Part shown: positions 2,893-34,534 of the stretch, one piece after another | Layout: every line of letters starts with the position of its first letter | Position numbering within the stretch: position 1 is the stretch's first letter | Source of the DNA: a virus | Strand: one strand, 5' to 3' | DNA length: 57,224 bases | IMG/VR virus record: IMGVR_UViG_3300027365_000015 | Coordinates: 1-57,224 of that record | Notes under the pieces: generated by a model | Told to the model about the DNA's origin: nothing | Database searches by the model: none | Seen by the model: only the letters and a program-made list of their open reading frames with translations | Program-made: the position numbers and the translations under genes

Positions 2893-3687
2893 ATGTCTCA
2901 GGACAATGAACACCTAGCGCTGTGGCAGCAGGTGGAAAAGACACCAACCGATGCGGTGAAGCCAGCCAAAGTCAATGGCCAGCAGATTACGGCAATCGAC
3001 ACCATGCACATGGTCAAGCTGGCCACCAAGCTGTTCGGCCCCCAGGGAATCGGCTGGGGATATCGCATCGACGTGGACCGTTTCGACCAGGGGGCACCGG
3101 TGCTGCTCAAGGAGCAGGTCATCGGCCATGAGCAGACCCACACCTGCCAAATGACCCTCTGGTATCTATGGAACGGCGAGCGTGGCGAGGTTACCCACTT
3201 CGGCCACACCCGCGCCGTCTACATGACCAGCAAGGGGCAGTTCATCACCGACAACGAGGCGCCCAAGAAGTCGGTCACCGATGCGATGAAGAAGTGCCTG
3301 TCACAGCTCGGCTTCGCCGCTGACATATACACCGGCCTGTTCGACGACATGGGCTACCGGGCACTACGCGAAACCGAGACGCGCCTGGAAAAAGCCGAGG
3401 ACTTCGACGCCGAGCTCGAAAAGTACCGCGCCGACTATCAAGCCTGGCTCGAGCGCGAATGCGACACCCTGCGCCACAAGATCCCCCACCCCAAGAGCAT
3501 TGATCTGGCTGCCAGCACAATGCTCGAACGCATCAGTGACCGAGCCAGCATGGCACGCGTCGATCCCGCTAAGGGCATCGAGTGGATCAATAAGGCCCGC
3601 GATGAAGGCATCGAGCGCGTAAAAGCTGAGCGCGCCGCCAAACAGCAACAGCAACAGCAACAGCAGGAGGAAGCTACCCATGGATAA
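2893..3687 (+). CDS. Rad52-like single-strand annealing protein (putative)
   Basis: This 264-residue protein likely anneals complementary single strands during phage recombination. The block NEAPKKSVTDAMKKCLSQL (about residues 121-139), followed by GFAADIY and an aromatic-rich front half, resembles the Rad52/Sak-type annealing proteins of phages. The ATG at 2893 has GAGGAG upstream. It is followed by a coiled-coil protein and SSB, the usual recombination set. The C-terminus is a poly-glutamine tract encoded by a CAGCAA microsatellite. The second left arm has an ERF-type annealing protein after a similar upstream sequence, so the two are alternative modules. The family assignment is by motif memory and needs a profile search. 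Confidence 0.65.
   Translation: MSQDNEHLALWQQVEKTPTDAVKPAKVNGQQITAIDTMHMVKLATKLFGPQGIGWGYRIDVDRFDQGAPVLLKEQVIGHEQTHTCQMTLWYLWNGERGEVTHFGHTRAVYMTSKGQFITDNEAPKKSVTDAMKKCLSQLGFAADIYTGLFDDMGYRALRETETRLEKAEDFDAELEKYRADYQAWLERECDTLRHKIPHPKSIDLAASTMLERISDRASMARVDPAKGIEWINKARDEGIERVKAERAAKQQQQQQQQEEATHG
3641..3667 (+). repeat. CAGCAA microsatellite in the annealing-protein gene
   Basis: About four CAGCAA units encode the glutamine run at the end of the upstream protein, and the tract merges into the CAGGAGG ribosome-binding site of the next gene. Slippage could alter the tail length or the spacing to that site. Confidence 0.7.
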
Positions 3688-4744
3688 CGCAGCCGAGAAA
3701 CAAGAAGTCGCTCAACCCTATGCCACCGAACTTGTGGAACTCAATCGCGTAGAAGCAGCCCTTGCCGAGCTGCGCGCCAAGTACGGCACGGTGCCCGATT
3801 TCACCAACAAGACAGGCTATGAGAAAGGCAAAAAGGGCATTCGGGAGCTGACTAGCTACCGCACCAGCACCGACAAGCTACGGCTGTCCATCACGGAGCC
3901 GCACCGAAAATTCATTGATCGCGTGAACAGCTACGGCAAAGACTTGATCGGCAAGATCGAAGCCATCGAGAAGCCATTGAAGGCCGCCAAGAAAGAGGTA
4001 GACGAGGCGGAAAAGCGCAAGGCTGAGGAACGCATCGCCCGGCTTCAAGAACGCCTAGCCAAGGAAGTGACCTCGTTTCTCGACACGGCCGTCGGCCTCG
4101 ACTCCAACGGCCTGGCCGACCTGATCGAGGCTGCCGAGGCCGTGGATGTAGAGGGCTACTTCGATATCACGAAGGAAGCCGAGGACGAGCGCGCCAGGGT
4201 GATTCGTGAACTGACCAACATGCACGCCGCCACTCTGGAGCGCGAGCGTCTGGCGGCAGAACAGGAAGAGCTCGAGGCCCAGCGCCGCAAGATGCAGGAG
4301 GAAGCAGAGCGCCGTGCTGCCGAGCAAAAGGAGCTTGAGGAGCTTCGCCGCTTCAAGGCCGAGCAGGAAGCCGCCAAGGCAAGCCAGGACGCCGAACGCG
4401 AGCGAATCCGCCAGGAGGAGGAAGCCAAGGCAAAGGCCGAGGCCGAGCGCAAGGCGCGCGAGGAGGGACCGGCGCCGGCCGAGAATGAGCCGGCCATCCA
4501 AAGCCACAGCCCAAGCGCGGGCGAGCCCGGCTACCGGAAGCCACTCGACACCAGCCGCATCACTCAAGCCGCCGACAACTTCAAGCGCGGTAGCGACATC
4601 GCCCGGCCGGACACGGTCGAGATCACTCGCAAGGAATACGACCGCCTGCTGGTGGCTGAGGCCAAACTCGACGCCCTCGAAGCTGCCGGCGTGGACAACT
4701 GGGCCGGCTACGACGACGCCATGGCCCATCTCGAGGCCGCCTGA
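3680..4744 (+). CDS. Coiled-coil protein between annealing protein and SSB
   Basis: This is a 354-residue, strongly charged protein. Residues about 95-270 are a long alanine, glutamate and arginine-rich coiled coil; the N-terminal 90 residues resemble the globular part of phage coiled-coil proteins often found next to recombinases (DUF1351-like, from memory). It overlaps the upstream gene by eight bases and CAGGAGG lies before its start. Its position points to a recombination or replication accessory role, which is inferred. Confidence 0.7.
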
Positions 4745-7242: not shown

Positions 7243-9740
7243 ATGGAGTACCGAGAATTTCTGGAAGGCAAGATCAAGCTGTCGGAGATGCACGGCTTCG
7301 GCTGCGAGCCCGACGAGATCAACCCGATACTCAAGCCTCACCAGCGTGACATCGTGCAATGGGCCGTGCGTGGCGGGAAGCGCGCCATCTTCGCCGCTTT
7401 CGGCCTGGGAAAGTCGGTCATTCAGATCGAGACGCTACGGATCCTTGGCGAGAAGCTGGGCGGAGGCAAGCTGCTGATCGTCTGCCCCTGGGCGTTCGCC
7501 AGGAGTTCAAGCGCGACGGCCGCATGCTCGATGTCGAGTTTGATTTCATCCGCACCAATGCCGAGATCGACGGTCCCGGCTTCTACCTGACCAATTACGA
7601 ATCGGTCAGGGACGGCAAACTCGATCCCAACTTGTTCGATGCGGTGAGCCTCGACGAAGCCTCGGTGCTGCGCAGCTTCGGCAGCAAGACCTACCAGACC
7701 TTCCTGACGCTGTTCGACCGGGTGCCGTTCAAGTTTGTGGCCACCGCCACGCCCTCGCCGAACCGCTATAAGGAGCTGATTCACTACGCCGGCTTCCTTG
7801 GGATCATGGATACCGGCCAGGCGCTGACCCGGTTTTTCCAGCGCGACAGCCAGAAGGCCAACAACCTCACGCTCTACAAGCACAAGGAGCGTGAGTTCTG
7901 GCTGTGGCTCAACTCCTGGTCGGTGTTCGTGCAGCGCCCATCAGACCTCGGCCACGACGACACCGGCTACGACCTGCCGCCGATGAAGGTGTTCTACCAC
8001 GAGGTGCCGGTGGACTACAGCGAGGCCGGTACCGACAACTGGGGCCAGGGCATGTTGTTCCAGGATGCAGCCCTGAGCCTTCAGGACGCCAGCCGCGAGA
8101 AGCGCGACAGCCTCGACGGCCGTGTCGCCAAGATGCGCGAGATCCTCGACGCCAATCCAGGCGACAGCTTTCTTCTTTGGCATGACCTCGAGGCCGAACG
8201 CCATGCCATTCAGAAAGCGGTACCCGAATCGAAAGCCGTCTACGGCTCGCAGGACCTGGAAGACCGCGAGCAGCGCATCATCGACTTCTCCGACGGCAAG
8301 TTCCAATACCTCAGCGCCAAGCCGGTGATCGCCGGCTCGGGCTGCAACTTCCAGCGCCATTGCCACAAGGCGATCTTTGTCGGCGTGGGGTACAAGTTCA
8401 ACGATTTCATTCAAGCCGTGCACAGGGTCTACCGCTTCCTGCAAACCGAGCAGGTGGAGATTCACATCATCTATGCCGAGAGCGAGCAGGAGATCCTGGC
8501 CGCGCTCAAGCAGAAGTGGATTCAGCACGACGACATGGTGAGCAAGATGACCGAGATCATTAAGCAGCATGGGCTGGGCAGCCTGAGCATGGCCGACATT
8601 CTGAAGCGCTCCATCGGAACCGAGCGCATCGAGGCCAGCGGCGAGCACTTCACCGTGGCCAACAACGACTGCGTGGAGGAGTGCCGGCTGATGGAGGAGA
8701 ACAGCGTGGACCTGATCCACACCTCCATCCCGTTCAGCAACCACTATGAGTACACGCCGAGCTACAACGACTTCGGCCACACCGATGACAATGACCACTT
8801 CTGGGCGCAGATGGACTTCCTCGCCCCGGAGCTTTTGCGCGTGCTCAAGCCCGGCCGCATCGCCGCGATTCACGTCAAGGACCGGATCCTGTTCGGCAAC
8901 GTCACTGGCGCCGGCGCGCCCACGGTCAGTCCCTTCCACGCCGAGTGCATCTTCCACTATCGCAAGCACGGCTTCGACTACATGGGCATGATCACGGTCG
9001 TGACCGATGTGGTGAGGGAGAACAACCAGACCTATCGCCTCGGCTGGTCCGAGCAGTGCAAGGACGGCACTAAGATGGGCGTCGGTTCGCCGGAATACAT
9101 CATCATCTTGCGCAAACCCCAGACCGATCGCTCCAAGGGCTATGCCGACGAGCGCGTCACCAAATCGAAGGAGGAGTACAGCCGGGCGCAATGGCAGGTG
9201 GACGCTCACGCCTTCTGGCGCTCAAGCGGCAACCGCATGCTCTCCCCGGAGGAGATGGCTCAGCTCGGCCCCGACCAGCTTGCCAAGATGTTCACCACCT
9301 ACAGCCTGCACAACGTCTACGACTACGAATCGCATGTGCGGATAGGCGAGGAGTTGGATAGCCGCGGAGCGCTGCCCTCGACCTTCATGAGCCTGGCCCC
9401 GGGCAGCAGCCATCCGGACGTCTGGCATGACGTGAACCGCATGCTGACCCTCAACGGCAGCCAGACGCAGCGAGGTCTTCAGAACCACGTTTGCCCGCTT
9501 CAGTTCGACATCGTGGACCGCATCATCAACCGCTATTCCAACCCAGGCGAAACGGTCTTCGATCCGTTCGGCGGATTGTTCACCGTGCCGTATCGGGCCA
9601 TCAAGCTCGGCCGCAAGGGGCGGGCCAGCGAGTTGAATCCCAGCTACTTCATGGATGGCGTGCGGTACCTCGAGGCGGCAGAGCGCGAGGTCTCGATGCC
9701 CTCCTTGTTCGACACCCTGGAAGACGAAGAAGCCGCCTAG
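7243..9740 (+). CDS. Helicase-DNA methyltransferase fusion, one-base frameshift
   Basis: Restored, this would be about 832 residues. The N-terminal half is an SF2/SNF2-type helicase: FGLGKS Walker A (about residue 52), LDEAS motif II (about 136), ATATPSP motif III (about 166) and QAVHRVYR motif VI (about 390). The C-terminal half is an amino-methyltransferase with TSIPF in the catalytic motif IV position (about 492) and FDPFGG for SAM binding (about 772), the order seen in beta-class enzymes. The frame breaks at the CCCC run 7485-7488. One more C would give VCPLGVRQEF, the expected helicase motif, whereas the present frame ends at 7590. The downstream frame is open from 7359 to 9740. It may protect phage DNA from restriction. 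The shift is either a sequencing error or a real mutation. Confidence 0.8.
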
Positions 9741-9755
9741 CCAGGCGGCATTTTT
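9732..9755 (+). terminator. Intrinsic terminator overlapping methyltransferase stop
   Basis: GCCGCC (9732-9737) pairs with GGCGGC (9744-9749), followed by A and five T. The stop codon lies in the loop. Confidence 0.8.
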
Positions 9756-9767
9756 ATGGAGAGCCCT

Positions 9768-10181
9768 ATGGCGCGTAGCAAGCACAAGCGCAAGGTGAGC
9801 GGGAAGAAACACAAGATCTATCAGGACCGGTCTCGCCGCCTGGCCAGCCTGCTGGTCTGGCATGGCGTCGGTCACCCAGGCGATGACGATGATTATGTCG
9901 GCGGCATCCGCTGGCCGCGCCACCTGCTCAGCGCGCAAGACGTTGACCGAATCACCAGGTGGGCACTGGCGACACCCAACCGTTGGTGGTGCAGGGCCAC
10001 GGTCATGTGCGTGGCCGATGACGGCACCAGCTACCAGGAGGCGGCCGAGTCCGAAACATTGCAGGCTTGCGTGGCCAACGAGGTCAGCCACTGGCGCATG
10101 GGGCTCATGGAAGACGCCAAGGCACGCTGCAACCCTAGGCATATCATCGCCGAGAAATTCGAGACGGGAGTCATCGCATGA
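9768..10181 (+). CDS. Hypothetical phage protein
   Basis: This protein has 137 residues with a very basic start (MARSKHKRKVSGKKHK). GGAGAG six bases before ATG 9768 makes this start better than the ATG at 9756. The middle contains CRATVMC. It ends in an ATGA overlap with the next gene. Function unknown; nucleic-acid binding is possible from the basic tail. Confidence 0.65.
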   Translation: MARSKHKRKVSGKKHKIYQDRSRRLASLLVWHGVGHPGDDDDYVGGIRWPRHLLSAQDVDRITRWALATPNRWWCRATVMCVADDGTSYQEAAESETLQACVANEVSHWRMGLMEDAKARCNPRHIIAEKFETGVIA

Positions 10182-11127: not shown

Positions 11128-11302
11128 TCGACTGCTCCCCCTGCCGGAACTGGAAAAGAAGGTGGGCTTCAAGCACGCGAAGATCTACCGCCTGATTCGC
11201 TCCGGCGAGTTTCCGACCGGCAAGATGATCCAGGGCAAGCGCCTCTGGCTTGAGCGCGAGATAGACGAGTGGATCGAGCGTCAGTGGGCTTCCGCTTCCT
11301 GA
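11117..11302 (+). CDS. AlpA-family excisionase / DNA-binding protein
   Basis: This protein has 61 residues with a MerR-like winged helix-turn-helix: LPELEKKVGFKHAKIYRLI, then GEFPTGKMIQGKRLWLEREI and DEWIERQ. AlpA proteins act as excisionase or as activators of a neighbouring integrase. It ends inside the 3' end of the convergent integrase gene (22-base overlap), a typical xis-int arrangement at a phage attachment region. Confidence 0.85.
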   Translation: MANNRLLPLPELEKKVGFKHAKIYRLIRSGEFPTGKMIQGKRLWLEREIDEWIERQWASAS

Positions 11303-12477
11303 CCTCGCAGGCTATCCACGTAATCCCCCCACCACTGCAGCATCTCCCGCCGCTCCTTCATGTACTTCGCGTGGTTGTAAGAGCCCCGCGTCCTGTCCTT
11401 CGGCACGTGCGCCAGCTGCCGCTCGATGGCATCCTCGCGCCACCCGTACTCGTTCATCAGCGTGGACGCGGTGGCGCGGAAGCCGTGGGTGGCGAAGGCC
11501 CCTCCCCCGAACCCCATCCGAGTCAGCGCGGTGTTGATCGTCGTGTGATGAATCGGCTTGTTGGGGTGCTTCATCCCGGGCACCATCAGTTCCCCGCCGC
11601 CCGAATACGTCTTCAGCTCCTCCAATACCCTTATCGCCTGGCTCGACAGCGGTACCGCATGGTCGCGCTTGCGCTTCATGTTCTGGCGCGGAATGCGCCA
11701 GATCTTCGCCTCGAAGTCCACGTCCTCCCAGCGACCGCGGCGCATTTCCACCCCGCGCACCATGGTGAACAACAACAGCTCGATGGCCAGCTGCGTGCTC
11801 CGGTACCCGCCATAGATCGGGATCTGCCCCAGCAGGAATCGCAGTTGCTTCTCGGTGAGCGCTACGGCGTGCTTGACCTCGCCGCGGGTCACCGCGCCCT
11901 TGACGTGCTCGGCCGGGTCATCCTTGGCGCGCAGAGTCAGGATCGCGAAGCGGAAGATGTTGCTGATCCACATGCGCACGTTGATGGCGATGGTCGGCGC
12001 CCCGCGCTTCTCGATGCGCCGCATGATCTCCAGGATCTCCGGCGCTGTGACATCGCGCAGCGCCAGCCGGCCCAGGGTCGGGAGTATCTCCTCGTCGAGC
12101 CCGTGGCGCACCTGGTCGCGGTAGTAGTCCGACCAGTTGGGCGAGCGCTCGACAAACCACTCCTCGGCAATGAGCCCGAAGGTGTTGTCCTGGTGCAGCT
12201 TCTCTTCGCGCTTCAGGCGCGCCTCCTCGTCCTTGGGATGGGCACCCTGGGCAATCAGCTTGCGCGCCCACTCGCGGCGCTCGCGGGCCTCTGCCAAGCT
12301 GGTGGAGGGGTACTCGCCGACGGTCCACATGGTCGGCTTGCCGTGGAGGCGATAACGCAGGCGCCAGTACTTGGCGCCGTTGGGCCTCACCTCGAGGCAC
12401 AGGCCGTGGGCGTCGGCGATACGATAGAGCTTCTCGCGGGGCTTGGCCTTGCGGGCCCTGGTGTCAGATAGCGGCAT
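11281..12477 (-). CDS. int: Tyrosine integrase, P4/DUF4102 type
   Basis: The protein has 398 residues. The N-terminal DUF4102 arm-binding domain is seen as MPLSDTRARKAKPREKLYRI followed by GLCLEVRPNGAKYWRLRYR. The catalytic domain carries R (VRGVEMRRGRW, about 241), HGFR (about 331), QLAHV, and the nucleophile tyrosine in the SYNHAKYM region (about 365-372). It would recombine attP with a host site. It is transcribed away from the repeat-rich 12.5-12.8 kb region and converges on alpA. Confidence 0.95.
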   Translation of the reverse strand: MPLSDTRARKAKPREKLYRIADAHGLCLEVRPNGAKYWRLRYRLHGKPTMWTVGEYPSTSLAEARERREWARKLIAQGAHPKDEEARLKREEKLHQDNTFGLIAEEWFVERSPNWSDYYRDQVRHGLDEEILPTLGRLALRDVTAPEILEIMRRIEKRGAPTIAINVRMWISNIFRFAILTLRAKDDPAEHVKGAVTRGEVKHAVALTEKQLRFLLGQIPIYGGYRSTQLAIELLLFTMVRGVEMRRGRWEDVDFEAKIWRIPRQNMKRKRDHAVPLSSQAIRVLEELKTYSGGGELMVPGMKHPNKPIHHTTINTALTRMGFGGGAFATHGFRATASTLMNEYGWREDAIERQLAHVPKDRTRGSYNHAKYMKERREMLQWWGDYVDSLRGQEAEAH

Positions 12478-15701: not shown

Positions 15702-18700
15702 TCATTCGATCTCGTCATAGCGACGGTTGAAGTCGTCGATCCAGCGCTGCATCTGGTTTTCAACCATCTCGGTCCGGCGGCGCCTGGCCTCATCAGAGAG
15801 CGTCTCGGTCTCCTCGATGCGGTCGCGACGCTTGCGCAGGTCGCTGAGGCGCTTCTCCAGGTCGGTCGCGCGATTGAACAGCCGAAGCTGCTGCTGGTGG
15901 TCTCGCCGGTAGTCGATTCGCTCACGGCCTCGCAGCGAATCCGCTTCATTGGCGATCTGGCCCAGCTCGTCGCGGCGCTCGTAGAAACGCTGCATATCGC
16001 CATATTCGCTGACGTCGCTCATGAAGCGGCCGGCAAACGGCACTCGGTAGCGCTCTACCTCTTCGCCGGTGGCGGTTCGCTTGGCGAAGTCCGCCGACTT
16101 CTCCACGAAGCCCCAGGCGCCGCCACCGTAATAGTTCACCAGGTGCTGCATCACGTCCGGGCTGACGTCGATTGCCCCGCTGATGTTGTCGGTACCGCCG
16201 GTGAACTCGTTGAGGAACCTCGCAAAGCCCTGATAAGCCTCGGGTGTCGAACGGAAAGAGCGGGAGCTATCGGGCGTCGGCGTGCCGAACGGGAAATCCT
16301 CGCGGTAGATCGGGCGCCCCGAGAAACTCTCGTTGACGCCGATCTGCGTAATCGAGCGAAAGATCGTCGGCGTCAGGTTCTTGAGGAACAGCGAGTGCGC
16401 CTCGTCGGAGTCTTCAAAGCCGATGGGCGAGAAGCTGCCGGCCACGGCCAGCACCAGGTTCTTGGCCGCCTCGGTGGCATCCTCGGTGCCGGCGACCACC
16501 GCCTCGGCGTGGGTGCCCACCACCGAGAAGACGTTGTAGCCGTAAGGCAGCGGGATCTTGATGTAGTCGTCGGGCTCGCCGCCCCACAGACTGCTCATGA
16601 AGATCAGGCTGCGCTCCTTCTCGTAATCCGGGATCTTGTCCCAGAACAGAGCGCCGTCTTCATCTTCTTCAGAGGCCCAGCGGTTGAGCATGCCAAGCAT
16701 GAAGGCGCCGGTGGCCATGCCCATTCCCATCTTCTGCGCCAGATTCATGCGCGCCCACACGTTCATCCGGCTCTTTCCCTCGGGGGCGTTCTTCACCGTG
16801 ACCATGGTGCGGGCGAAGTTCATGGTGCCTTGAATGGAAGCGTTGGCGAACATGTAGGCAGCGTTCAGCGCGGTCCCGGCCTCGCCGCGGCGATTGAAGT
16901 TGACCGTCATATTCTTGGCCAGGCTGGCCGCCTTCTTCCGCGAGATGCCGGCGCGCCGGGCGTTGGCGTAGGCGGAGAGGCGCACCGCATTCTCCACGGC
17001 GCCGTTCATGTTCTCCACGAAGTCGGCGGTCTTCTTGCGCGCCTTGAGCATGTGGGAGAGCGTGGTGCCGTCGGCCCGGCGAATCATCGACTGGATCTCC
17101 TTCGCCTGGGCGTTGAGGTCCTTCATATCGAAGTAGCCGGTCTTGGCGCCGTCCTCCTGGAACTCACGGAACCACTGGTCCCACTCGCGGCTGCCGTCGT
17201 TCTTGCCATCCCTGCCGGCCAGGCCGCGCCAGGCGGCGCGCATTGCCGGGCCAATGTCGCGGGCGGTCTGGCGCACGATCGCCTCGCCCTTGATCTTGCC
17301 GTCGTCGCGGGTCTGCTCGGCGCTCAGGTTGAGCAGCGCGGTCTGCACGTCACGGGCGAAGTTGGTCAGCATGAACTCGGGGTTGTAGCTGGTCACCAGT
17401 GACGACATGACGCGCGTGACGGCGCCGGCGGCGCGGACCAGGGTGTTGTTGTTCTCCGGGCCCACGTTGCGCATGGCGTTCATCAGGCGCTCGTCGTGGA
17501 TCTTGAGGTAGTAGGTCCGACCGGCGCGCTTGGCCTTGAAGTAGCGGTCGTTGCCGGCCATATTGACCGGTCGCTCCTGCACCTCGATGCGCACTTGCCC
17601 CGTCTCTGGGTCGGTGACCCGGGTCGGCGTGCGCTGGGTATCGGGGTTGTCGTCGGTGAACACCTCCCACAGCGCCGGGTTCGGGTTGTCGGTCACCAGG
17701 GAGAGCAGCGATTGCGCCACCTCATTCTTGCGCCGGCGGATCAGCGACTCGTTGACGTCCACGATCACCTGGGACGATGGCGAGTCGGCCAGCGACTTAC
17801 GGCCGGCGGCGATGCGCGACTCCCGCCCGCTGACCTCGAAGCCGCGGCCGGTGCGCGGCCGCCCCGGCTCGTCGGCGGCATTGCCCTTGAGCGGCACGTA
17901 GTACTGCCAGGCGGACTCCCAGGCATCCACCACCGCATCATCCTCGAGGCCGCCCTCGCGGATCGCCTCGCGGCGCAGTCGGGTCATGTCGTAGACAAAC
18001 TGGGACAGGCGGTCGTATTCGGCCTGCTTGCCCGAGTTGGCGACCCGCTCGATGATCTCGGCGGCCTGGGTGTTGGTCATGCCGGAGCCGCCATCCTGCA
18101 TCTCAGGGTCGTCCGGGTTGCGCTCGGCGATTGTCGCGTTGCGCTCCGGCGCGTGGCGGGCGTAGAGATAGTCGTCGAGGTCGGCCTGGCTTATCTTGGC
18201 CTTGGCCAGACCTTCTGCCAGCGGCTCGACATACTGCTCCTGCAGCTGACGCAGGTCATACTCCACCTTGCCGTGGAATAGCTCCTCGGCCAGGTAGGCG
18301 TCGGCTTCCTCCTCGATGTCGCGGCCGGTGCGGCGGATCGACTCTTCGAGGATCTTCAGCGGGCGCATCTTGTCGGCCATCTTGCGCAGCGCCGTATCCA
18401 CCAAGGACTCATCCGGCATGGCGAAGCCGGTGCTGTCCGTACTGCTGAACTTGCCGCCGACGGTGCCTGGCTGACTGGCGAGGCTGAAGCGCACCTCGCC
18501 CACGCCGCGGTCGGGCTCGCGGTACATGGCCTCGCTGATCTCGTAGTCCTTGTTGCGGCCCTTGTTCTCCACGAAGCCGAAGCGGCGATAGAACTCGCGC
18601 AGGCGCTTCACGTTGCCACCAAAGTCTCTGGACGGCGTCAACGCCAGGATGCGCCCGGAGGCGTCCGCCCAGTCGGTCAGGCGACGCATCACCGCAGAGC

Positions 18701-21700
18701 CGGTGCCCTGCTCGCGCCCCGGGGCCACGATGCGCGACAACGTCACACGCTGGTCACTCCCTGCCAGGTCGAGCTTGAGGCCGGGAAACTCCTCGCGCAG
18801 CTGGGCGGCCAGATCCTGAGGCGACAATTCAGCCTGCCGCTCGGCGAAGCTGTAGCGGTTTCCGGCATCGCTGTTATCGCGTGTGGCCTGCTGTCGGCGC
18901 AGCCAGCGACGAGCTTGGTCGCCCATGACCAGAATGTCGGCGGTTCGCCACTGGATGCCCGGGAATAGCTTGCGCAGTAGGCGGCGGATCGTGGACTTGA
19001 TGCGCTGGCTCAGCTTAGGCCGGCCGTTGCTGTCCTCGATGTAGTGGGCCACCAGCTCCTCGGCCAGGGTGATCTTGCCCTTGCGGGTGGTCACGTCGAT
19101 GAAGGGGTAGGCCTGCTGAATGTCCTCGATGTTGCGCCGCCCCGGCTCTGAGCGGGTGTGGCTCTGGTAGATCTCCATCATCAACGGCTCGAGCTCTTCG
19201 CCGAGCATTCCGCGAATGCCGTAATGACCCACGCCCTCGTGGACCGCCTTGCGCACGCCGTCAGCCTCGTCGATGAGGTTGTCGGCGACGATCATCGGTG
19301 CACCGGTATCGGGGTTGTAGACGCCGCTGACTCGCCCCCCCTCGACGCCCTGCAGGGCCATGATTAGCTGCACACCGACCGGCAGCTCCGATGCGGACTG
19401 AACCACCTCGACAACCGACAGCTCTGGGTGACCCGCCAGGCGAGCGCGGATCGCTTCGGCGCGCGGCCCTGCTGGTGATTCATCCGCAAAAGCAAACAAA
19501 GGGTCCTGACCGCGAGCGGTGGCCTGGTCGGCAGGAAGATCACTGCCGGCCAGTGCAAAGTCGTCGGCCTCACGGTCGGCGGCGGCGCGCTGCTCCTGCT
19601 CGCGCAGCTGGGTGGACTCGGCCTGTTGCGCCTGCTGGGTGGCCTGCTCACGCCTGGCAAGATCCTGCTCGGTGTAAGACTCGAGGAGCGGAGATTCGGC
19701 TACGTCCTGGGTTTCTTCAGCCCCTTCGGCAGGATCAGCTTCTCGCCGCTGGGCAGGCTCTCGTTCGCCTTCGCTAGAGCGTCCTGAAACATCGGTCTCA
19801 GGTGCTCGTTGCTCTTCTGGGTCTGCTGGGTTTTGTCTGAATCCTTCACGTATCGCGTCCTCGCTGGTGGTGCTGTCTTCGAATAGCGCGCCATTTCGGG
19901 CGGTCTCGGCGCGCCGCCGCGCATCCTGAGCCACGAAGCCAAGCGCTGCCTCTAGGCTGGCACGCGATCGCATATTGGTGTTGATCAGGATAGCCAGTTC
20001 GGCGGTGAGTTCCGATACCGGCTCGCTGAAGGCATCGGCCTGACCGATCAGCTCGCGAATAGGTGCCCCGCCGCGGCGCGAGGCGCGAACCAGGCGCACC
20101 GCCTCATTGATGGTGCTGATGATGTCGAGTGCTTCCTGATTGCCGGTCTCGCGCGCCATGGCAAGATCCGGGGCCGCGGCCTGCAGGGCGCCGGCCAGGT
20201 TTCGCATCTGGTCGCCTTGCTCGGTGACCAGCTCCACCATATCCGGCTCGGCATAGGCCTTGGCGAACAAGGCACGGCTCATGCGCTGCCCCAGCTCCGG
20301 GGCGGCCTGTCCCTGTCGGGTGGTGTAGCGCGCTGCCTCGTTGTTACCCAGTCGGCCCACGAAGGAGCGCTGGAAGTCGCGATTGCTGGCTGCTAGCGGG
20401 TCGCCGCTCTGGTCCGGGTTCCAGGCCTGGAGTTCATCAGCGGTAAGTGTGTCGGCATCAGCCATGGCCTGCTCGTAGCCGGTCATGCCGGCCACCTGGC
20501 TCTCGTTGGAACGGCGGGCAAACTCGGCGCGATCAATCTTGCTGGCTCGCTCTCGTACCAGCACTGGGCGGCGCATGCCTTCGATGTCAGCCTCGATACC
20601 ACGCTCCTGGGCCTGGCGGCGAACGAAATCGCGGTACGCCTGGGCGTGCTCGCCGCCCTCACGGTAGGCGGTGGCGATGGCCATGGTGCGCCCATTGCCA
20701 GACTCCACCACGCCATCCTTGCCGATGATCGGGGCTCCGGTACCGGCATCGGGGCTGCTGCCGAGGCGCTCGGGATTTAGCCGCGCGGCGATATTGCGCA
20801 CCTGCACCTGGCTGTTGGCGTTAGTGCGATCGCGCGGCTGCAGTTCGGTGGGGAATTGTGGATTGACCTGTCCGTCGGAGCGGTTGGATGGGGTGAGGTC
20901 GGCCAGGTCCACCACGCGGAAACGGGTTTCCACCGGGGTGTTGTCCGGCAGGTAGGCGGTTTCGCGCTGGGCCTGTGGCACGACCTCGGCTGCGCTCTGT
21001 TCTTGCTCCTGCGGCCCCACCTCTTCGGGGGAGTTCGCCGGCTCCGTAGCCCCGCTGGCGGCCTGCTGACCCATCGCGAACGGCGCGCGGGTATTGCCCT
21101 CTCGAACCCACTGACGAAAGTCGTCAATCGAGGTCTCGGCGATGTCGCCCAGCCCTTGCCAGTTCTCGTCATAGCTGGACAGGTACGCCTGCCGGGCCTC
21201 CTCGAGAGAGTCATACCCCATCAGGGTCTTGGTCTCGTCGAAGCTGCCCTCTTCGTTCACCTGGTCCACGACGAACACGCGAGACGAGGCTGGGTTGTCG
21301 CCCACAAAGACATCGAGGTTGTCACCGTCGGCACCCTCGGTGCCCTTCAGATCACCGTAATGGCCACCCATGCGATTGGCCCACTCAGTGCCGTCCGGGG
21401 CGGTGCCACGGCGTGTCGATCCCTTGGGATTCTCGATAGCGATCTCGAAGCCGTTGAGCCGAACCTTGCCCTTTCGGTAGTTGCCGGCCTCGGCCTGTGC
21501 GGGGGTTGGCTCGGTGTCGGTCTCGGCAGCGGCTCGCTCGACATCGCCCGGGGAGGGAGGAGTTTCCGACATCGCCGCGCCCTGCTCTTCCCAAGCCTGA
21601 TCCACTTCGGCAGCGGTGTAGTTGGCGTTGCGGTAAGCCATCGGGTCGGGATCGGCATCTGGGCCCTGCTCTACGGCCGCCCGCTCGTTGATTCGCCCAA

Positions 21701-23207
21701 CGGCATCGGAGAATCGCTGGGATGCAGCGCCCAGCCGCTGGCGGACCTGTTCAATGGATTCTTCGTCGCCGCGGCTGCGGGCTAGCGTCTCTTCCTCCAG
21801 CGCGGAAGACACCTCCTCGCTGACGGCATCCAGATCGGCCACGGCTTCGGTATCACCCTGCTCCTCGGCAGCGGCTCGCAGCGCCTTGAACGCATCGCCA
21901 TAAGTGATCGAGTCGCGCGCCTCACGCTCTGCGGACGACAGCTCGAAGCGCGGCCGCCGGATGAGGTCGGATGCCGCACCGACGGCTTCCTCGTTGGCCT
22001 GCAGGGCTTCTGGCGATGGCGCCTGGTTCGTATCGCTGGATTGCGATGATTTGGCCTGTGTGCTCCCGCTGCGGTTGCCAGCCGCCTCGGCGGTCGCTGT
22101 GCCCAAGCGCACGGCACCGCCGGTCGGGCCGCCAATGATGGCGCCGCCGGCAGCGCGCCGGCCAGCCGTTACCGGGTCCCAGCCCTGCTCGGTACCGACC
22201 GACTCGCCGGCATACTCGATACCGCCTTCCTGGATCGCTTCGGTGGTGGCCTCGGTGACGCCCGCGCGGCCTACGGCGCCAGGGATCTGGCTGGCCCGGG
22301 AAACGGCATTTTTGCCACCCGGGAGGATCCTGCCCAGCGCGAACCGATCCAGCAGCACGGAAGCCGCGGCGGTCGGCCCGGCAACGGCGTAATCGCGCCC
22401 TTCGGGCATGCCCTCGCGACCATCATTCCCGACGCGGGCTTCGCCGATCTCTTGCGTACGGGACGCCAGGTAGGCAGGCAGGTTGATCACCAGCCCGGCC
22501 ATGTCGGCCAGGGCGGCGGGACCCTGCTCGGCGGCGGCACCGGCGAGCGTCTCGATGCTGGGTTCGTCGAGTGCGCGATCGATGGTGTAGTTCGGCTGGT
22601 ACCCGAGCCCCACATCCTCCACAGCCTGGCCGGCAGCAGTCAGTCCGGTGTCGGTGTCCTCCGGCTTTGCGCGAGCTGTGAAGTCCAGCCCGTAGCCGCC
22701 CAGCTCGAGATCGGGCTCGTAGCCACGCGCGCGCATCGCCTCGGATTCGCCCCCGATCACCCCGGGATTAAAGCCACCCAGGTGGTCGGAGATCATCTTC
22801 TCGCCCATCTCGGCCATGTTGCCGATGAACTGCGCGGCATTGCCGGCCAGGTCGAGGCCGCGCTCACCTGCATTGCGCAGCGCATTGCTCGCCAGCCCCG
22901 GCGGCTCTGCCTCGGATTGAGCCCCCGGTATCGCCAGGCCGGTTTCATCCTGAGGCGAGCTCTGCATGGCAAAGCCGCCGCCAGTGTCACTTCCGCCGCG
23001 ATCGCCGAATACATCTGCCTCGGTCTGGGTGAAAAACTTGCCCTGCACTTCATCGAGCAGATCGGCGGGGACGTTGGGCTCCACGACACGACGGAAGAAC
23101 TCGCCGCGAACCGCTTGGCGGGTCTGCCAATCAGCGGACTGGAAGTCCTCGTCGCTGGAAATATCTGACCACTTGGGGGTGCTGTTGCGCTGGCTGGCGG
23201 CGTTCAC
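15702..23207 (-). CDS. Giant polyvalent virion protein (2501 residues)
   Basis: This matches the polyvalent proteins that phages are thought to inject with their DNA. In order: a disordered N-terminal region with glycine and alanine-rich hydrophobic patches (about 90-380); an inorganic-pyrophosphatase-like module, YRKGKVRLNGFEIAIE through GADGDNLDVFVGDNP (about 575-645); a DdrB-type ParB-like domain with DLTPSNR and GNGRT (about 765-890); a metallopeptidase-like HEGVGH segment (about 1325); a GNAT acetyltransferase, GREQGTGSAVMRRL (about 1456-1560); then long helical regions with a hydrophobic MGMATGAFMLGML segment (about 2170). It is last in the virion operon. Antirestriction or host take-over is inferred; such proteins usually mix enzyme domains this way. 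Confidence 0.8.
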   Translation of the reverse strand: MNAASQRNSTPKWSDISSDEDFQSADWQTRQAVRGEFFRRVVEPNVPADLLDEVQGKFFTQTEADVFGDRGGSDTGGGFAMQSSPQDETGLAIPGAQSEAEPPGLASNALRNAGERGLDLAGNAAQFIGNMAEMGEKMISDHLGGFNPGVIGGESEAMRARGYEPDLELGGYGLDFTARAKPEDTDTGLTAAGQAVEDVGLGYQPNYTIDRALDEPSIETLAGAAAEQGPAALADMAGLVINLPAYLASRTQEIGEARVGNDGREGMPEGRDYAVAGPTAAASVLLDRFALGRILPGGKNAVSRASQIPGAVGRAGVTEATTEAIQEGGIEYAGESVGTEQGWDPVTAGRRAAGGAIIGGPTGGAVRLGTATAEAAGNRSGSTQAKSSQSSDTNQAPSPEALQANEEAVGAASDLIRRPRFELSSAEREARDSITYGDAFKALRAAAEEQGDTEAVADLDAVSEEVSSALEEETLARSRGDEESIEQVRQRLGAASQRFSDAVGRINERAAVEQGPDADPDPMAYRNANYTAAEVDQAWEEQGAAMSETPPSPGDVERAAAETDTEPTPAQAEAGNYRKGKVRLNGFEIAIENPKGSTRRGTAPDGTEWANRMGGHYGDLKGTEGADGDNLDVFVGDNPASSRVFVVDQVNEEGSFDETKTLMGYDSLEEARQAYLSSYDENWQGLGDIAETSIDDFRQWVREGNTRAPFAMGQQAASGATEPANSPEEVGPQEQEQSAAEVVPQAQRETAYLPDNTPVETRFRVVDLADLTPSNRSDGQVNPQFPTELQPRDRTNANSQVQVRNIAARLNPERLGSSPDAGTGAPIIGKDGVVESGNGRTMAIATAYREGGEHAQAYRDFVRRQAQERGIEADIEGMRRPVLVRERASKIDRAEFARRSNESQVAGMTGYEQAMADADTLTADELQAWNPDQSGDPLAASNRDFQRSFVGRLGNNEAARYTTRQGQAAPELGQRMSRALFAKAYAEPDMVELVTEQGDQMRNLAGALQAAAPDLAMARETGNQEALDIISTINEAVRLVRASRRGGAPIRELIGQADAFSEPVSELTAELAILINTNMRSRASLEAALGFVAQDARRRAETARNGALFEDSTTSEDAIREGFRQNPADPEEQRAPETDVSGRSSEGEREPAQRREADPAEGAEETQDVAESPLLESYTEQDLARREQATQQAQQAESTQLREQEQRAAADREADDFALAGSDLPADQATARGQDPLFAFADESPAGPRAEAIRARLAGHPELSVVEVVQSASELPVGVQLIMALQGVEGGRVSGVYNPDTGAPMIVADNLIDEADGVRKAVHEGVGHYGIRGMLGEELEPLMMEIYQSHTRSEPGRRNIEDIQQAYPFIDVTTRKGKITLAEELVAHYIEDSNGRPKLSQRIKSTIRRLLRKLFPGIQWRTADILVMGDQARRWLRRQQATRDNSDAGNRYSFAERQAELSPQDLAAQLREEFPGLKLDLAGSDQRVTLSRIVAPGREQGTGSAVMRRLTDWADASGRILALTPSRDFGGNVKRLREFYRRFGFVENKGRNKDYEISEAMYREPDRGVGEVRFSLASQPGTVGGKFSSTDSTGFAMPDESLVDTALRKMADKMRPLKILEESIRRTGRDIEEEADAYLAEELFHGKVEYDLRQLQEQYVEPLAEGLAKAKISQADLDDYLYARHAPERNATIAERNPDDPEMQDGGSGMTNTQAAEIIERVANSGKQAEYDRLSQFVYDMTRLRREAIREGGLEDDAVVDAWESAWQYYVPLKGNAADEPGRPRTGRGFEVSGRESRIAAGRKSLADSPSSQVIVDVNESLIRRRKNEVAQSLLSLVTDNPNPALWEVFTDDNPDTQRTPTRVTDPETGQVRIEVQERPVNMAGNDRYFKAKRAGRTYYLKIHDERLMNAMRNVGPENNNTLVRAAGAVTRVMSSLVTSYNPEFMLTNFARDVQTALLNLSAEQTRDDGKIKGEAIVRQTARDIGPAMRAAWRGLAGRDGKNDGSREWDQWFREFQEDGAKTGYFDMKDLNAQAKEIQSMIRRADGTTLSHMLKARKKTADFVENMNGAVENAVRLSAYANARRAGISRKKAASLAKNMTVNFNRRGEAGTALNAAYMFANASIQGTMNFARTMVTVKNAPEGKSRMNVWARMNLAQKMGMGMATGAFMLGMLNRWASEEDEDGALFWDKIPDYEKERSLIFMSSLWGGEPDDYIKIPLPYGYNVFSVVGTHAEAVVAGTEDATEAAKNLVLAVAGSFSPIGFEDSDEAHSLFLKNLTPTIFRSITQIGVNESFSGRPIYREDFPFGTPTPDSSRSFRSTPEAYQGFARFLNEFTGGTDNISGAIDVSPDVMQHLVNYYGGGAWGFVEKSADFAKRTATGEEVERYRVPFAGRFMSDVSEYGDMQRFYERRDELGQIANEADSLRGRERIDYRRDHQQQLRLFNRATDLEKRLSDLRKRRDRIEETETLSDEARRRRTEMVENQMQRWIDDFNRRYDEIE

Positions 23208-30590: not shown

Positions 30591-31028
30591 TCAGGCCTCG
30601 ATCAGCGATGCCTGGTGAAACAGGTCATCGACCTCGGCCTCGGTCAGGCCGAGCTGGTCCGCCAGGGCGATGATGGTCGGGCTCATGCGACGGAACTCAT
30701 GGGCGTCATGCCAGGCATCGATCACCAGCGGGTCGGTAGCCGGGTCGTCCATGATGGCCTCGACCTGGCTGCGAAGCCCCGCCTGACGCAGCACGGCGCG
30801 CGCCTGAAAGCGGCTGACGACGGCGGATTCTCGCCAGTCCTTCAGTTGTTCGGCGGTCATCGGAATCTCGGGATACCCGTCGAACTCGGCGAGGGCATTG
30901 CCCTCGTCGATCCACTGCTGGACGTCGCTATAGAGCTCATTACTCACAGGAACGACGGCGCCCTTCTTCACTCGCCCGTAGTCGGCGAGGCAGACGACGC
31001 GCCCGGCAGTTTGGTCTTTGCTGAACAT
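30591..31028 (-). CDS. Small tail-region protein
   Basis: This protein has 145 residues. AGGAGG directly before ATG 31028 makes the start secure. The gene begins inside the 3' end of the reverse transcriptase frame (61-base overlap). The protein is mainly helical after about residue 45, and its size and place suggest a tail assembly chaperone or adaptor. Function unknown. Confidence 0.65.
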   Translation of the reverse strand: MFSKDQTAGRVVCLADYGRVKKGAVVPVSNELYSDVQQWIDEGNALAEFDGYPEIPMTAEQLKDWRESAVVSRFQARAVLRQAGLRSQVEAIMDDPATDPLVIDAWHDAHEFRRMSPTIIALADQLGLTEAEVDDLFHQASLIEA

Positions 31029-32032
31029 GCGACCTCCTGGGTCAGCTGATGATGCTGCGCGGCGAGTGAGCGCAGCAGGTTGTGGGAATCGGCCCAGCGA
31101 GCATGGCCAAGCCAGGCAGCGAGGAAGAAGCGCAACGCTTGCTTGTCGCCGGCCAGGGTGTGGGCTTTGATCTTGCGTTTGGCACGGCGAACGCTGTCGC
31201 GCCTCAGCAGCTTATGGCTCGGGAATATCCTATAGCCAAGGAAGTTGACGCCGGCGCTCACCGGCGTGACCGACCACTTGCTGAAGGTCAACCCCAGGGC
31301 GTGGCGGCAGAACATCTCCAGCCAGCCGCGCAGCTCGTGGAGAAAGCCGCGGGAGCGACCCAGTATCACGATGTCGTCCATGTAGCGGGTGAAGTTAGAC
31401 ACACCCATGGTCTGCGCCAAGAAGCGGTCCACTTCGGTGCCGTAGACGTTGGCCCACAGCTGCGACGTCAGGTTGCCGATCGGCAGCCCGGTACCGGTGC
31501 GCGGCGTGAACCGCTCGATCAGCCAGGCGGTGTGCCGACAGCTAATCTTGGCGTCGATGCGCCGCCATAATGTCGGCCTGTCCACGCTGTAGAAATACTT
31601 GCTGAAGTCGGTCTTTAGGGCATAGACCGTGGCGCCATTGCGACCGAGGTGGCGCATCATCGCTTGGGTGCGAATCGCGCCACTATGCATGCCGCGCCCC
31701 TTCCTGCAGGCGTAGGCCTGGGGGAGCATGCCGGCCTCGAAGATCGGGCCGATGACGTTGCACAGCGCATGCTGGACGACGCGATCTTGAAACGGCGCGG
31801 CGGTGATCGGGCGCGGCTTGGGCTCGTAGACCCAGAACGTCCGGGGCTTGCCCGGCCGGTAGGTCTGGTCGAGGATGTCGCGCCTCAGCTTCTCCAGCCA
31901 GGCCGCCTCGTATTCCTTGAAGTTCAGATAGCCGGCGCTGCTGCGTCGGCCCCGCGCCGCCTTTTGGTAGGCGTTGCGCAGGTTGTCGGGGTCGGCGATC
32001 CTGCCGATGAGGTTCCGGTACCGCTTGCCCAA
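30968..32032 (-). CDS. DGR-type reverse transcriptase
   Basis: This protein has 354 residues. It copies the TR RNA into adenine-mutagenised cDNA for transfer into the VR. Polymerase motifs: LKTDFSKYFYSV (motif A, Asp 142), the DGR hallmark IGNLTSQ (185-191, in place of QGxxxSP of other groups) and the catalytic YMDD (217-220). FLGYRIFPSHKLLRR is near residue 270. The start is a TTG at 32032 with AAGGAA upstream; no ATG is nearby. It lies downstream of target, avd and TR in the order of phage BPP-1. Its last 20 residues overlap the next gene. Confidence 0.95.
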   Translation of the reverse strand: MGKRYRNLIGRIADPDNLRNAYQKAARGRRSSAGYLNFKEYEAAWLEKLRRDILDQTYRPGKPRTFWVYEPKPRPITAAPFQDRVVQHALCNVIGPIFEAGMLPQAYACRKGRGMHSGAIRTQAMMRHLGRNGATVYALKTDFSKYFYSVDRPTLWRRIDAKISCRHTAWLIERFTPRTGTGLPIGNLTSQLWANVYGTEVDRFLAQTMGVSNFTRYMDDIVILGRSRGFLHELRGWLEMFCRHALGLTFSKWSVTPVSAGVNFLGYRIFPSHKLLRRDSVRRAKRKIKAHTLAGDKQALRFFLAAWLGHARWADSHNLLRSLAAQHHQLTQEVACSAKTKLPGASSASPTTGE

Positions 32033-32156
32033 TCCTGTTCCTTATCCGGCGTCCTGCCGGGTGCGTTGATAAAAGCCGCGCGCAGGTCTCGATATTTCAC
32101 TACGCCCTGTTTCGCGGACCGGGTCGTGTATTTCCCGAAGGAGGTAGGTGCACGGC

Positions 32157-32172
32157 TGACCACATTTGGTCA
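32157..32172 (-). ncRNA. Hairpin in DGR RNA between TR and RT
   Basis: TGACCA and TGGTCA form a perfect six-base stem with a four-base loop, about 40 bases 3' of the TR on the transcribed strand. In the BPP-1 system the RNA between TR and RT is needed for cDNA priming. An equivalent role is inferred here. Confidence 0.5.
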
Positions 32173-32212
32173 CCCCGGGTGGCCGTGGCCATCCCGGCGG
32201 CAGGTGATTGTC

Positions 32213-32331
32213 GTCACAGACGCCGCGGGCGCCGATGTTGCTGCTGGAGTTGTCCGGCTGATTGTTCCAGTTCGAGGCGCGAGAGCCTGCGTTGGAGCCG
32301 TTGTCCCAGTTCGCGCCGAATAGCGGCGAGT
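32213..32331 (-). repeat. DGR template repeat (TR)
   Basis: This 119-base stretch matches the variable repeat at 32741-32859 at all 93 template positions that are not adenine on the transcribed strand, and differs at 16 of its 26 adenines. It carries clustered AAC/AAT codons (SNWNNQPDNSSSN reading). It lies between avd and the reverse transcriptase. The 3' end GGCGTCTGTGAC is invariant and probably contains the IMH-like recognition end. Confidence 0.95.
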
Positions 32332-32350
32332 ATCCGTGCACCACCCATGC

Positions 32351-32704
32351 TCAGCGCCTGTTCTTCTGCCAGGCGCCGACCATTCTGCCGACCTCGGCCA
32401 GATGGACCGAGGCCACCTCATGCTGATGAGGTGTAATGAGCTTATGCGCCGGCGAGGCGGCGAAGCGCAGCAGCCAGCGCAGCTCGGCGAGCGCGGCATC
32501 CACCTGGTAGACGCGGCTCACCTGGTTGGACTTGGCCGCCACATAGATCAGGCCGGGCACCGACAGCAGCGCATCGAGCAGCTTGTCGCGGTACCGGCCG
32601 TGGCGGCGCGGTAGGGTCTGGATGATCGGGTACAGGTAGGCCACCGCCTGGTCATAGCGCTCGACGATGGCCAGTGACTGCACTCTGCGTGGAGCTTCCT
32701 TCAT
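32351..32704 (-). CDS. avd: DGR accessory protein Avd
   Basis: This protein has 117 residues and forms the four-helix bundle of the bAvd family: VERYDQAVAYLYPIIQTLPR, HGRYRDKLLDALLSV, QVDAALAELRWLLRFAAS and VASVHLAEVGRMVGAWQK. It has a basic surface and binds the reverse transcriptase and TR RNA; it is required for retrohoming in BPP-1. It starts nine bases after the target gene stop and ends 20 bases before the TR. In known DGRs this gene is found in exactly this place. Confidence 0.93.
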   Translation of the reverse strand: MKEAPRRVQSLAIVERYDQAVAYLYPIIQTLPRRHGRYRDKLLDALLSVPGLIYVAAKSNQVSRVYQVDAALAELRWLLRFAASPAHKLITPHQHEVASVHLAEVGRMVGAWQKNRR

Positions 32705-32713
32705 GTCGCGTCG

Positions 32714-34264
32714 CTATCGCTCCGCTTGCAGGTTCAGGTGGTCACAGACGCCGCGGGCGCCGAGGGTGCTGCTGGAGCCGTCCGGCCGAAAGTACCAGAA
32801 CGAGGCGCGAGAGCCTGCGTGGGAGCCGCCGTCCCAGCTCGCGCCGAAAAGCGGCGAGCGGATGGAGTGCGTGTAGATGTCGCCACGGCCGTCCGCCCAA
32901 TCGTTCCAGGTGGCGCTGCCGGTCGCCGAGGTACCGTTGATGTCGGCGCCCCACTGCCACATGACGCCGGTGATCTGCTCGCAGCCGATGTCACTGCGGT
33001 GGCCGGCCTGGTGCTGGGTGGTGCCGGGATCGGTGCCGACGGCCTGGCGCTCGACCACGCCGTAGGCGATGGAGGCGAACTCCTGATAGAACGGTAGGCG
33101 CTTGCCGGCGGCGGTGGCCAGGTCCACGGCGACCCACCAGCTCAGGTTGGCGTAGGTGCTCGACCCGTCGCCGCCGTAGGCGTCGGGAATCACCGGGACG
33201 CTGTTGGCATCGGCGATCTGCGCGCCGTTGCGCGAGTAGCCGTTCAGGCCGTACTGGGTATCCATCAGGTAGATGTCGGCCCAGATGCCGCACTTTGGGT
33301 CATGCACCATGGCCCGAGGACTGGGCGCCGATGGCAGCCAGTTCAGGTCCCACAGTGAGCGCGAGGCGATGCCGCCGTTGGCAAAAGAGTGGAACCCGCC
33401 TGCTGCGCGGGCACCCGCAGGCGCGGCGCTGTCGGCGTCTACCGCTTCGAGCGTGCCGTCGCCATGCGCATAGACGGTGTAGTCGGTGCCATTGCCCAAG
33501 GCCGGCAGGGTGACCGAGGTGCCGGCGGCGATCTCGACCAGGCTCGAGCCCACCACCAGGGCCAAGTCGGAAGCGACCTCCAGGGTGGTGGACGAGGGCG
33601 CATTCCAGGCCGGCAGGCTGCCATCAGCCTTGGCGAAAGCCGTTGGTGTGACGGCTACCGCGAAGCCTCGATAGTCCTGCTCCAGCTGGGCCAGCTGCTT
33701 GCCATCCAGGGTGTCGGCATCAAGTTCTGAGCCCTCGCCGTCCACGGTCAGCAGCTTGGCCAGCACGTCGGCGGCGGTGTAGCTGCTGGCGTCGAGCTTC
33801 TGGGCCAGGGCGTTGGTCATGGTGGTGGCGAAGTCGGGGTCGTTGTTCAGCGCCTCGGCCAGCTCGTTCAGCGTGTCCAGGGCGCCGGGCGCGGCTGCGA
33901 CCAGGGCTTCCAGCTCGCTGTCGGTATAGGCCTTGGCATCCTCGAGCAGGGTGCGCAGCGTCTGGGCGGTGATGCGCGCCTCCACCTTCTCGCCACCGGC
34001 ATGGACGATGGCATCGCCTTCGTAGCCGCGCTCCACGGTCAGGGTGTAGTTGCCGCCGCCGTCATCGGTGATGGCGGTCACCTTGACCACCTCGATGTTG
34101 CTGCCGTAGCGCGAAGCGTCGTTGAACAGGGTCATCAGGAACCAGTCGCCGCTGGCCAGCGACGCCGGCAGATGGGCGCCGTTCTTGAGGCTCAGGATGG
34201 TCTCGCCTGACGGCACGGAGGCGGCAAGGACGCCGCGGGCGTTGTTGATGAAAATCTGCGGCAT
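32714..34264 (-). CDS. mtd: DGR target: Mtd-like receptor-binding tail protein
   Basis: This protein has 516 residues. The N-terminus (MPQIFINNARGVLAASV) is a tail-attachment type; residues about 100-150 are helical (LLEDAKAYTDSELEALVAAA). The C-terminal third is a C-type-lectin-like fold with GVMWQWGADI, then the variable segment SPLFGASWDGG to ARGVCD (about residues 468-508). The VR sits in the last 50 residues. Diversification would alter receptor specificity. The gene begins directly after a small fibre-tail adaptor gene and is followed by avd. Confidence 0.92.
   Translation of the reverse strand: MPQIFINNARGVLAASVPSGETILSLKNGAHLPASLASGDWFLMTLFNDASRYGSNIEVVKVTAITDDGGGNYTLTVERGYEGDAIVHAGGEKVEARITAQTLRTLLEDAKAYTDSELEALVAAAPGALDTLNELAEALNNDPDFATTMTNALAQKLDASSYTAADVLAKLLTVDGEGSELDADTLDGKQLAQLEQDYRGFAVAVTPTAFAKADGSLPAWNAPSSTTLEVASDLALVVGSSLVEIAAGTSVTLPALGNGTDYTVYAHGDGTLEAVDADSAAPAGARAAGGFHSFANGGIASRSLWDLNWLPSAPSPRAMVHDPKCGIWADIYLMDTQYGLNGYSRNGAQIADANSVPVIPDAYGGDGSSTYANLSWWVAVDLATAAGKRLPFYQEFASIAYGVVERQAVGTDPGTTQHQAGHRSDIGCEQITGVMWQWGADINGTSATGSATWNDWADGRGDIYTHSIRSPLFGASWDGGSHAGSRASFWYFRPDGSSSTLGARGVCDHLNLQAER
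32741..32859 (-). repeat. DGR variable repeat (VR)
   Basis: This is the 3' end of the target gene. All 16 differences from the TR fall at template adenines; they change eleven codons (for example AAC to TTC, TAC, GGC, CAC). After GTCTGTGAC the similarity ends and the protein continues HLNLQAER. Confidence 0.95.
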
Positions 34265-34267
34265 GGA

Positions 34268-34534
34268 TTACATCTCCACCACGGTGATCATGAAATCGAC
34301 CTCTTTCACTCGGCTCTGGGTGTGAATGAGGGGTGAGAACTTGTAGGTCTGCCCGTTGGCCCCGCCACGGATCCACAGCTTCACCCGGTCGGGCTCGATG
34401 CTGACCTGGGTGATCTCGATGCCGTCCGGCGCCTCGGCGTCCACGGAGACGACTTCGTCGCCCTCGGCCAGCCAGTCCGCGAACAGCAGGTCGTAGTCGA
34501 GGTGATCGTTGGGTTGCTTGCGCCAGGTCTTCAT
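34268..34534 (-). CDS. Phage fibre-tail adaptor-like protein
   Basis: This protein has 88 residues. DYDLLFADWLAEGDEVVSVD, LWIRGGANGQTYKFSPLI and VKEVDFMITV match the short fibre-tail adaptor proteins (one immunoglobulin-like beta domain) found in many phages. It should link a fibre to the tail. It lies just upstream of the DGR target gene, and its start overlaps the preceding stop. Confidence 0.7.
   Translation of the reverse strand: MKTWRKQPNDHLDYDLLFADWLAEGDEVVSVDAEAPDGIEITQVSIEPDRVKLWIRGGANGQTYKFSPLIHTQSRVKEVDFMITVVEM

Follow-up and report, generated by a model that had tools for sequence, protein, structure and literature searches.

A phage unrelated to BPP-1 that carries a BPP-1-type diversity-generating retroelement with a variant hairpin after its VR

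A viral stretch of 57,224 nt (IMGVR_UViG_3300027365_000015, positions 1 to 57,224), analysed whole and referred to here as the window, carries among its tail genes a cassette (30968-34264, from the end of the reverse transcriptase (RT) gene to the start codon of the target gene) that raises the question of whether a phage unlike BPP-1 hosts a diversity-generating retroelement (DGR) of the BPP-1 type, and whether its target site is marked in the same way. The cassette belongs to a known kind, the BPP-1-type DGR, here placed in a new phage setting and equipped with a variant of the target-site element. It is ordinary as DGRs go, and the part worth following is an interrupted hairpin after the VR.

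With regard to its anatomy, the parts lie on the minus strand in the BPP-1 order that the original prediction gave, namely target gene with VR, avd, TR and RT, with a spacer RNA between TR and RT. The target gene (32714-34264) encodes a tail-fibre/receptor-binding protein of 516 aa which matches PF21916 (mtd_2nd, 3e-5) and phrog_11262 (9e-96), and of which residues 176-512 match the solved Mtd structure (PDB 1yu1, E 3e-49) over a region that covers the VR. Residues ~176-512 are thus Mtd-like, with a C-type lectin fold by homology, and the VR is the 3' end of the target gene, the product of which would be a variable protein of this predicted fold. Residues 1 to ~198 are, as judged from sequence comparison, a phage-specific N-terminal module, the first 195-198 residues being common to two relatives (L082 and L075) that are devoid of the Mtd part. 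The neighbouring gene (34268-34534, minus strand) encodes a gp77-like fibre-tail adaptor (PF23148, 2e-17), which is likely to be the attachment point of the target. The avd gene (32351-32704) encodes an accessory protein of 117 aa that matches PF22296 (bAvd) at 9e-25 and the BPP-1 Bbp7 structure 4dwl at 8.5e-29. The RT gene (30968-32032; 354 aa, TTG start) contains both motifs ascribed to it, IGNLTSQ and YMDD, which conform to the (I/L/V)GxxxSQ and YxDD patterns of the DGR clade, and shares its final 61 nt (30968-31028) with a minus-strand gene of 145 aa (30591-31028, phrog_6034), which is found beside the same RT in unrelated phage backbones and is also present in DGR-less relatives.

The TR (32200-32330) and the VR (32728-32858), both on the minus strand, form a repeat pair of 131 nt with 85% identity at an offset of 528 nt. 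Within a core of 118 nt (VR 32741-32858, TR 32213-32330), mismatches are found at 15 of the 25 TR adenines and at none of the 93 other positions, a pattern with a chance of ~1e-12 if substitutions were base-blind (hand arithmetic). The 3' end of the core holds GC14, 14 GC-only nucleotides identical in both repeats (32749-32762 in the VR, 32221-32234 in the TR), followed by a 21-nt IMH in the VR (32728-32748) and IMH* in the TR (32200-32220) that differ at exactly five positions; this is the layout published for BPP-1 (PMC3240598). Across 49 distinct TR/VR pairs from the window and related DGRs, 639 of 1237 adenines differ versus 27 of 4436 non-adenines, a ratio somewhat favoured by the method, since the segments were located with a score lenient toward adenine mismatches. 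In the window, TR adenines fall within 17 codons of the VR, which corresponds to ~4e13 theoretical protein variants.

Such a pair might in principle be an ordinary duplication in a tail-fibre gene, lying near an unrelated RT from a group II intron or a defence system, and the RT does match group II RTs weakly (E ~1e-12). Its match to the BPP-1 bRT structure 8ub7, however, reaches 1.3e-100, its match to phrog_1423 4e-110, and its best matches among GenBank phages are to Bordetella phages at ~51% identity. In the tree it groups with BPP-1 and other DGR RTs, so the original prediction of a DGR-clade enzyme held, as did that of a DGR-type Avd when both proteins were searched against profiles. The adenine-only mismatches of the core, together with the presence of both Avd and a DGR spacer RNA, refute the ordinary duplication, to which we attach next to no probability. 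The spacer (Sp) RNA (32075-32200, minus strand) matches Rfam RF03022 (Phage_DGR) with 84.2 bits (E 5e-13) and retains the conserved GTGGTCAGC, whose A at 32157 is the counterpart of position 56 in the BPP-1 spacer, an adenosine which we take to be the site of cDNA priming. An internal adenine of the spacer has been described as the primer (PMC12875486). By this analogy, the A at 32157 is a candidate priming adenosine.

Whether the element works was addressed through its relatives, in pairwise comparisons that are free of the bias of the lenient score. L016 and L021 have 14 differences in 2300 nt, of which 13 are in the VR, all of them at a TR adenine, and none in the TR. L066 and L071 present 15 of 22 differences in the VR, all 15 at TR adenines, and L038 and L040 present 20 of 23, with 19 of the 20 at TR adenines. 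The 13 VR differences between L083 and L085, which carry another DGR type in the same genomic slot, are all at TR adenines. Near-identical relatives hence differ in the VR almost only at TR adenines while the TR remains constant, as expected from the original prediction, which had been staked on variation at this site; the DGR lineage therefore appears to be active in nature. The variation was measured between relatives, this phage being present as a single copy, and activity in the phage itself would follow by analogy with them and with BPP-1.

That the cassette here is instead a relic, intact in sequence and diversified only in the past, would be in keeping with the weakness of its post-VR hairpin by standard energies and with L079, which has lost most of the RT and has an HNH endonuclease ORF standing there instead, the other parts being intact, so that inactivation evidently happens. 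The TTG start of the RT likewise weighs against a functional element. Against this, the frames of target, avd and RT are open, the catalytic motifs are intact, the RT is 90% identical to that of the nearest relative, and spacer RNA, GC14 and IMH are all conserved; moreover, L016 and L021, which have the same hairpin type, vary in the VR only apart from a single difference. We consider a relic quite improbable and hold, with high confidence, that this is a complete BPP-1-type DGR, intact in sequence and probably functional; the completeness and apparent intactness claimed originally are borne out by the presence of RT, Avd, Mtd-family target, TR, spacer RNA and GC14/IMH. The spacer RNA, the unusual hairpin and the HNH gene of L079 go beyond what that prediction had noticed. 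In L079 the affected region spans 16552-17300, with the HNH ORF on the opposite strand (16611-17192); target, avd, TR and spacer RNA are intact, and VR/TR differences are still mainly at adenines.

Phage DGRs have been described as carrying after the VR a 7-10 bp GC-rich stem with a GRNA loop, required for efficient homing (PMC3240598). A perfect hairpin of the BPP-1 style was sought in the window and its nearest relatives and none was found. Once G·A pairs are allowed, an element that the nearest relatives share becomes visible at 32708-32725 (minus strand, overlapping the target stop codon), GCG-GA-GC-[GATA]-GC-GA-CGC, in which 3+2 pairs surround a tandem G·A mismatch. Its GATA loop fits GRNA, and its stem falls short of an uninterrupted 7-10 bp; equivalence to the BPP-1 hairpin is suggested by position, loop and covariation. 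By standard DNA energies it reaches -4.0 versus -12.2 kcal/mol for BPP-1, and being so much weaker it could make homing slower. Single-sequence DNA folding of the window hairpin is no better than that of shuffles (z -0.3), that is, it gives no support beyond chance, and hence the case for a G·A hairpin rests on covariation.

Viral contigs were scanned for an IMH followed by GAGC-GRNA-GCGA, with the outer bases left free, which yielded 104 stretches. Among 78 pattern contexts, about half have no TR in the DNA covered, some of them being cut off. Since TR-less contexts without outer pairing may be chance occurrences, covariation was restricted to the 39 unique contexts (38 distinct sequences) with an identifiable TR, which is adenine-biased in each. 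Watson-Crick pairing is found in 34 of the 38 sequences at the pair next to the mismatch on its outer side and in 32 at the one beyond it, versus 14 and 11 when shuffled, in a control that leaves the relatedness among the 38 targets in place, and 86.8% of structure cells pair, versus 64% when shuffled and at most 48% with slid partners. In the RT tree, every member with hairpin data in the 15-row clade of the window has the G·A type or a close variant, and apart from that clade the type arises separately at least twice, in L034 and L048. L033 had been assigned to it as well and was dropped, since its stem is otherwise perfect and the label came from the tail of that stem.

In the window group, the element extends over the final codons and the stop codon of the target, and a single hairpin of this kind is not unusually stable, so that one could suspect chance conservation of a coding end (...Q-A-E-R-stop) with no structural element at all. 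Yet in L006 and L019 it lies 3' of the stop codon and its stem differs in sequence, and the outer pairs covary while slid partners pair far less, which makes mere coding conservation unlikely. We favour, with some reserve, the reading that a clade of phage DGRs, the one of the window among them, marks its target by a hairpin in whose stem a tandem G·A mismatch is conserved (NN-GA-GC-[GRNA]-GC-GA-N'N'), and that these bases probably pair in a non-Watson-Crick manner beside the GRNA loop, in which case the homing machinery would read a specific non-canonical DNA shape and not merely a stable GC-rich stem. No description of an interrupted post-VR stem was found in the literature searched, which leaves out most subscription journals. 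As a natural variant, the tandem G·A hairpin makes the role of the post-VR structure testable, in that either stem stability or a specific shape may be the cue for the machinery.

Anatomy, homology, substitutions confined to adenines, variation of the VR among relatives and modularity of the cassette are observed here, and the steps of priming, mutagenesis and retrohoming may be pictured after BPP-1. RT and Avd would bind the avd-TR-spacer RNA, and cDNA would be primed at a spacer adenosine (candidate 32157) and copied through the TR, with random bases placed opposite template adenines. The cDNA would then take the place of the VR, at the end of the tail-fibre gene, with GC14/IMH and the post-VR hairpin fixing boundary, direction and efficiency, and the outcome would be a large repertoire of receptor-binding surfaces.

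The phage around the cassette is of another kind than BPP-1. Of 36 window proteins tested against the whole BPP-1 genome, the RT, Avd and the target, the last by its C-terminus, are the only ones with a match. The original prediction had set the phage apart in its left arm and control genes, which is true but too narrow, as head, portal, terminase and the remaining tail proteins have no BPP-1 match either; the structural and replication genes that Rauchvirus, the genus of BPP-1, has in common are not shared. The window encodes an SU10-like portal, a major capsid protein (MCP) that distantly matches those of Rhizobium and Mycobacterium phages, a podovirus-like fibre adaptor and internal virion proteins, and an integrase (11281-12477). 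A megablast search with 24 kb returned no close phage in GenBank, and the window yielded no tRNA. Of the relatives found, the nearest is a prophage region of Chromohalobacter sp. 296-RDG (L004; RT 90%, capsid 81%, adaptor 95%), from which the host is probably a halomonad (salt-loving, Halomonas-type). Elsewhere in the window, a large polyvalent protein of 2501 aa (15702-23207) presents an InPase-like domain, ddrB-ParB and LPD38, with DarB-like antirestriction similarity; a gene at 7359-9740 combines helicase-family matches with an N6/N4 DNA methyltransferase domain, and a 354-aa protein (3680-4744) has a T7 gp5.9-like RecBCD-inhibitor domain at its C-terminus.

The cassette occupies a slot between the capsid gene and that of a 541-aa virion protein, which was followed in contigs from the best 80 related-capsid-protein matches. 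It is spanned in 53 loci, counting L004: a BPP-1-type DGR is present in two, a DGR of this type that lacks its RT in one and another DGR in four, and 46 have no RT matching three DGR RT queries. Among related phages, a single tail-fibre slot thus contains one or the other of two DGR types that are unrelated to each other, or no DGR. Conversely, six loci (L005, L012, L013, L016, L021, L042) carry the same cassette, Mtd domain included, and have no match to the remaining head and tail genes seen in the window bar a weak portal match in three; the cassette of L074 runs off its contig end. The N-terminus shared without Mtd in L082 and L075, together with the cassette shared by unrelated phages, shows that the exchange unit is made of the Mtd domain and avd-TR-RT, which moves as a whole and is joined to the N-terminal fibre module of the phage. 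The N-terminal anchor of the target is kept and its C-terminal domain is swapped together with the DGR; frequent DGR transfer between genomes is known in general (PMC8144416).

Further observations concern DGRs of related phages or RT branches. In L146, a group I intron (9065-9956; RF00028, 59 bits) with an ORF-sized insert precedes the BPP-1-type DGR of this related phage, ~5-6 kb upstream of it. In L008 (8095-9775, Mesorhizobium), a single TR is accompanied by a pair of VR-like copies (8117-8236 and 9084-9203), both with adenine-only mismatches, so that one DGR probably serves two targets. In L029 (9512-9863) and L031 (9515-9866), from a BPP-1-related RT branch, TR and VR start only 248 nt apart, which leaves no room for avd between them.

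Compared with known systems, the window provides a second BPP-1-type system, well separated from the first and closely related to cassettes in isolate genomes, that is useful to test the generality of the BPP-1 rules. It resembles the BPP-1 DGR (mtd, avd, TR, brt) in gene order, Mtd-type target, bAvd, RT (51% identity), GC14 and 21-bp IMH with five mismatches, RF03022 spacer RNA with the A56 context and GRNA hairpin loop after the VR, and differs from it in its unrelated phage backbone, in the longer and different N-terminus of the target and in a stem broken by the tandem G·A, where BPP-1 has 8 perfect GC-rich pairs. L004 is of the same phage type throughout (target 78%), whereas its VR is different and the 3' arm of its hairpin has one extra A. 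In Vreelandella subterranea (L005/L012), a different phage carries the same cassette (RT 86%, Mtd C-terminus 61%), with a 3x3 hairpin interruption (GGA/GTA). The other DGRs of the slot (L075, L083, L085, L109, L125), in contrast, share the head genes (MCP 77-86%), the slot and the adenine-only TR/VR mismatches with the window, while their RTs are ~33-35% identical to its own and the Mtd domain is unmatched.
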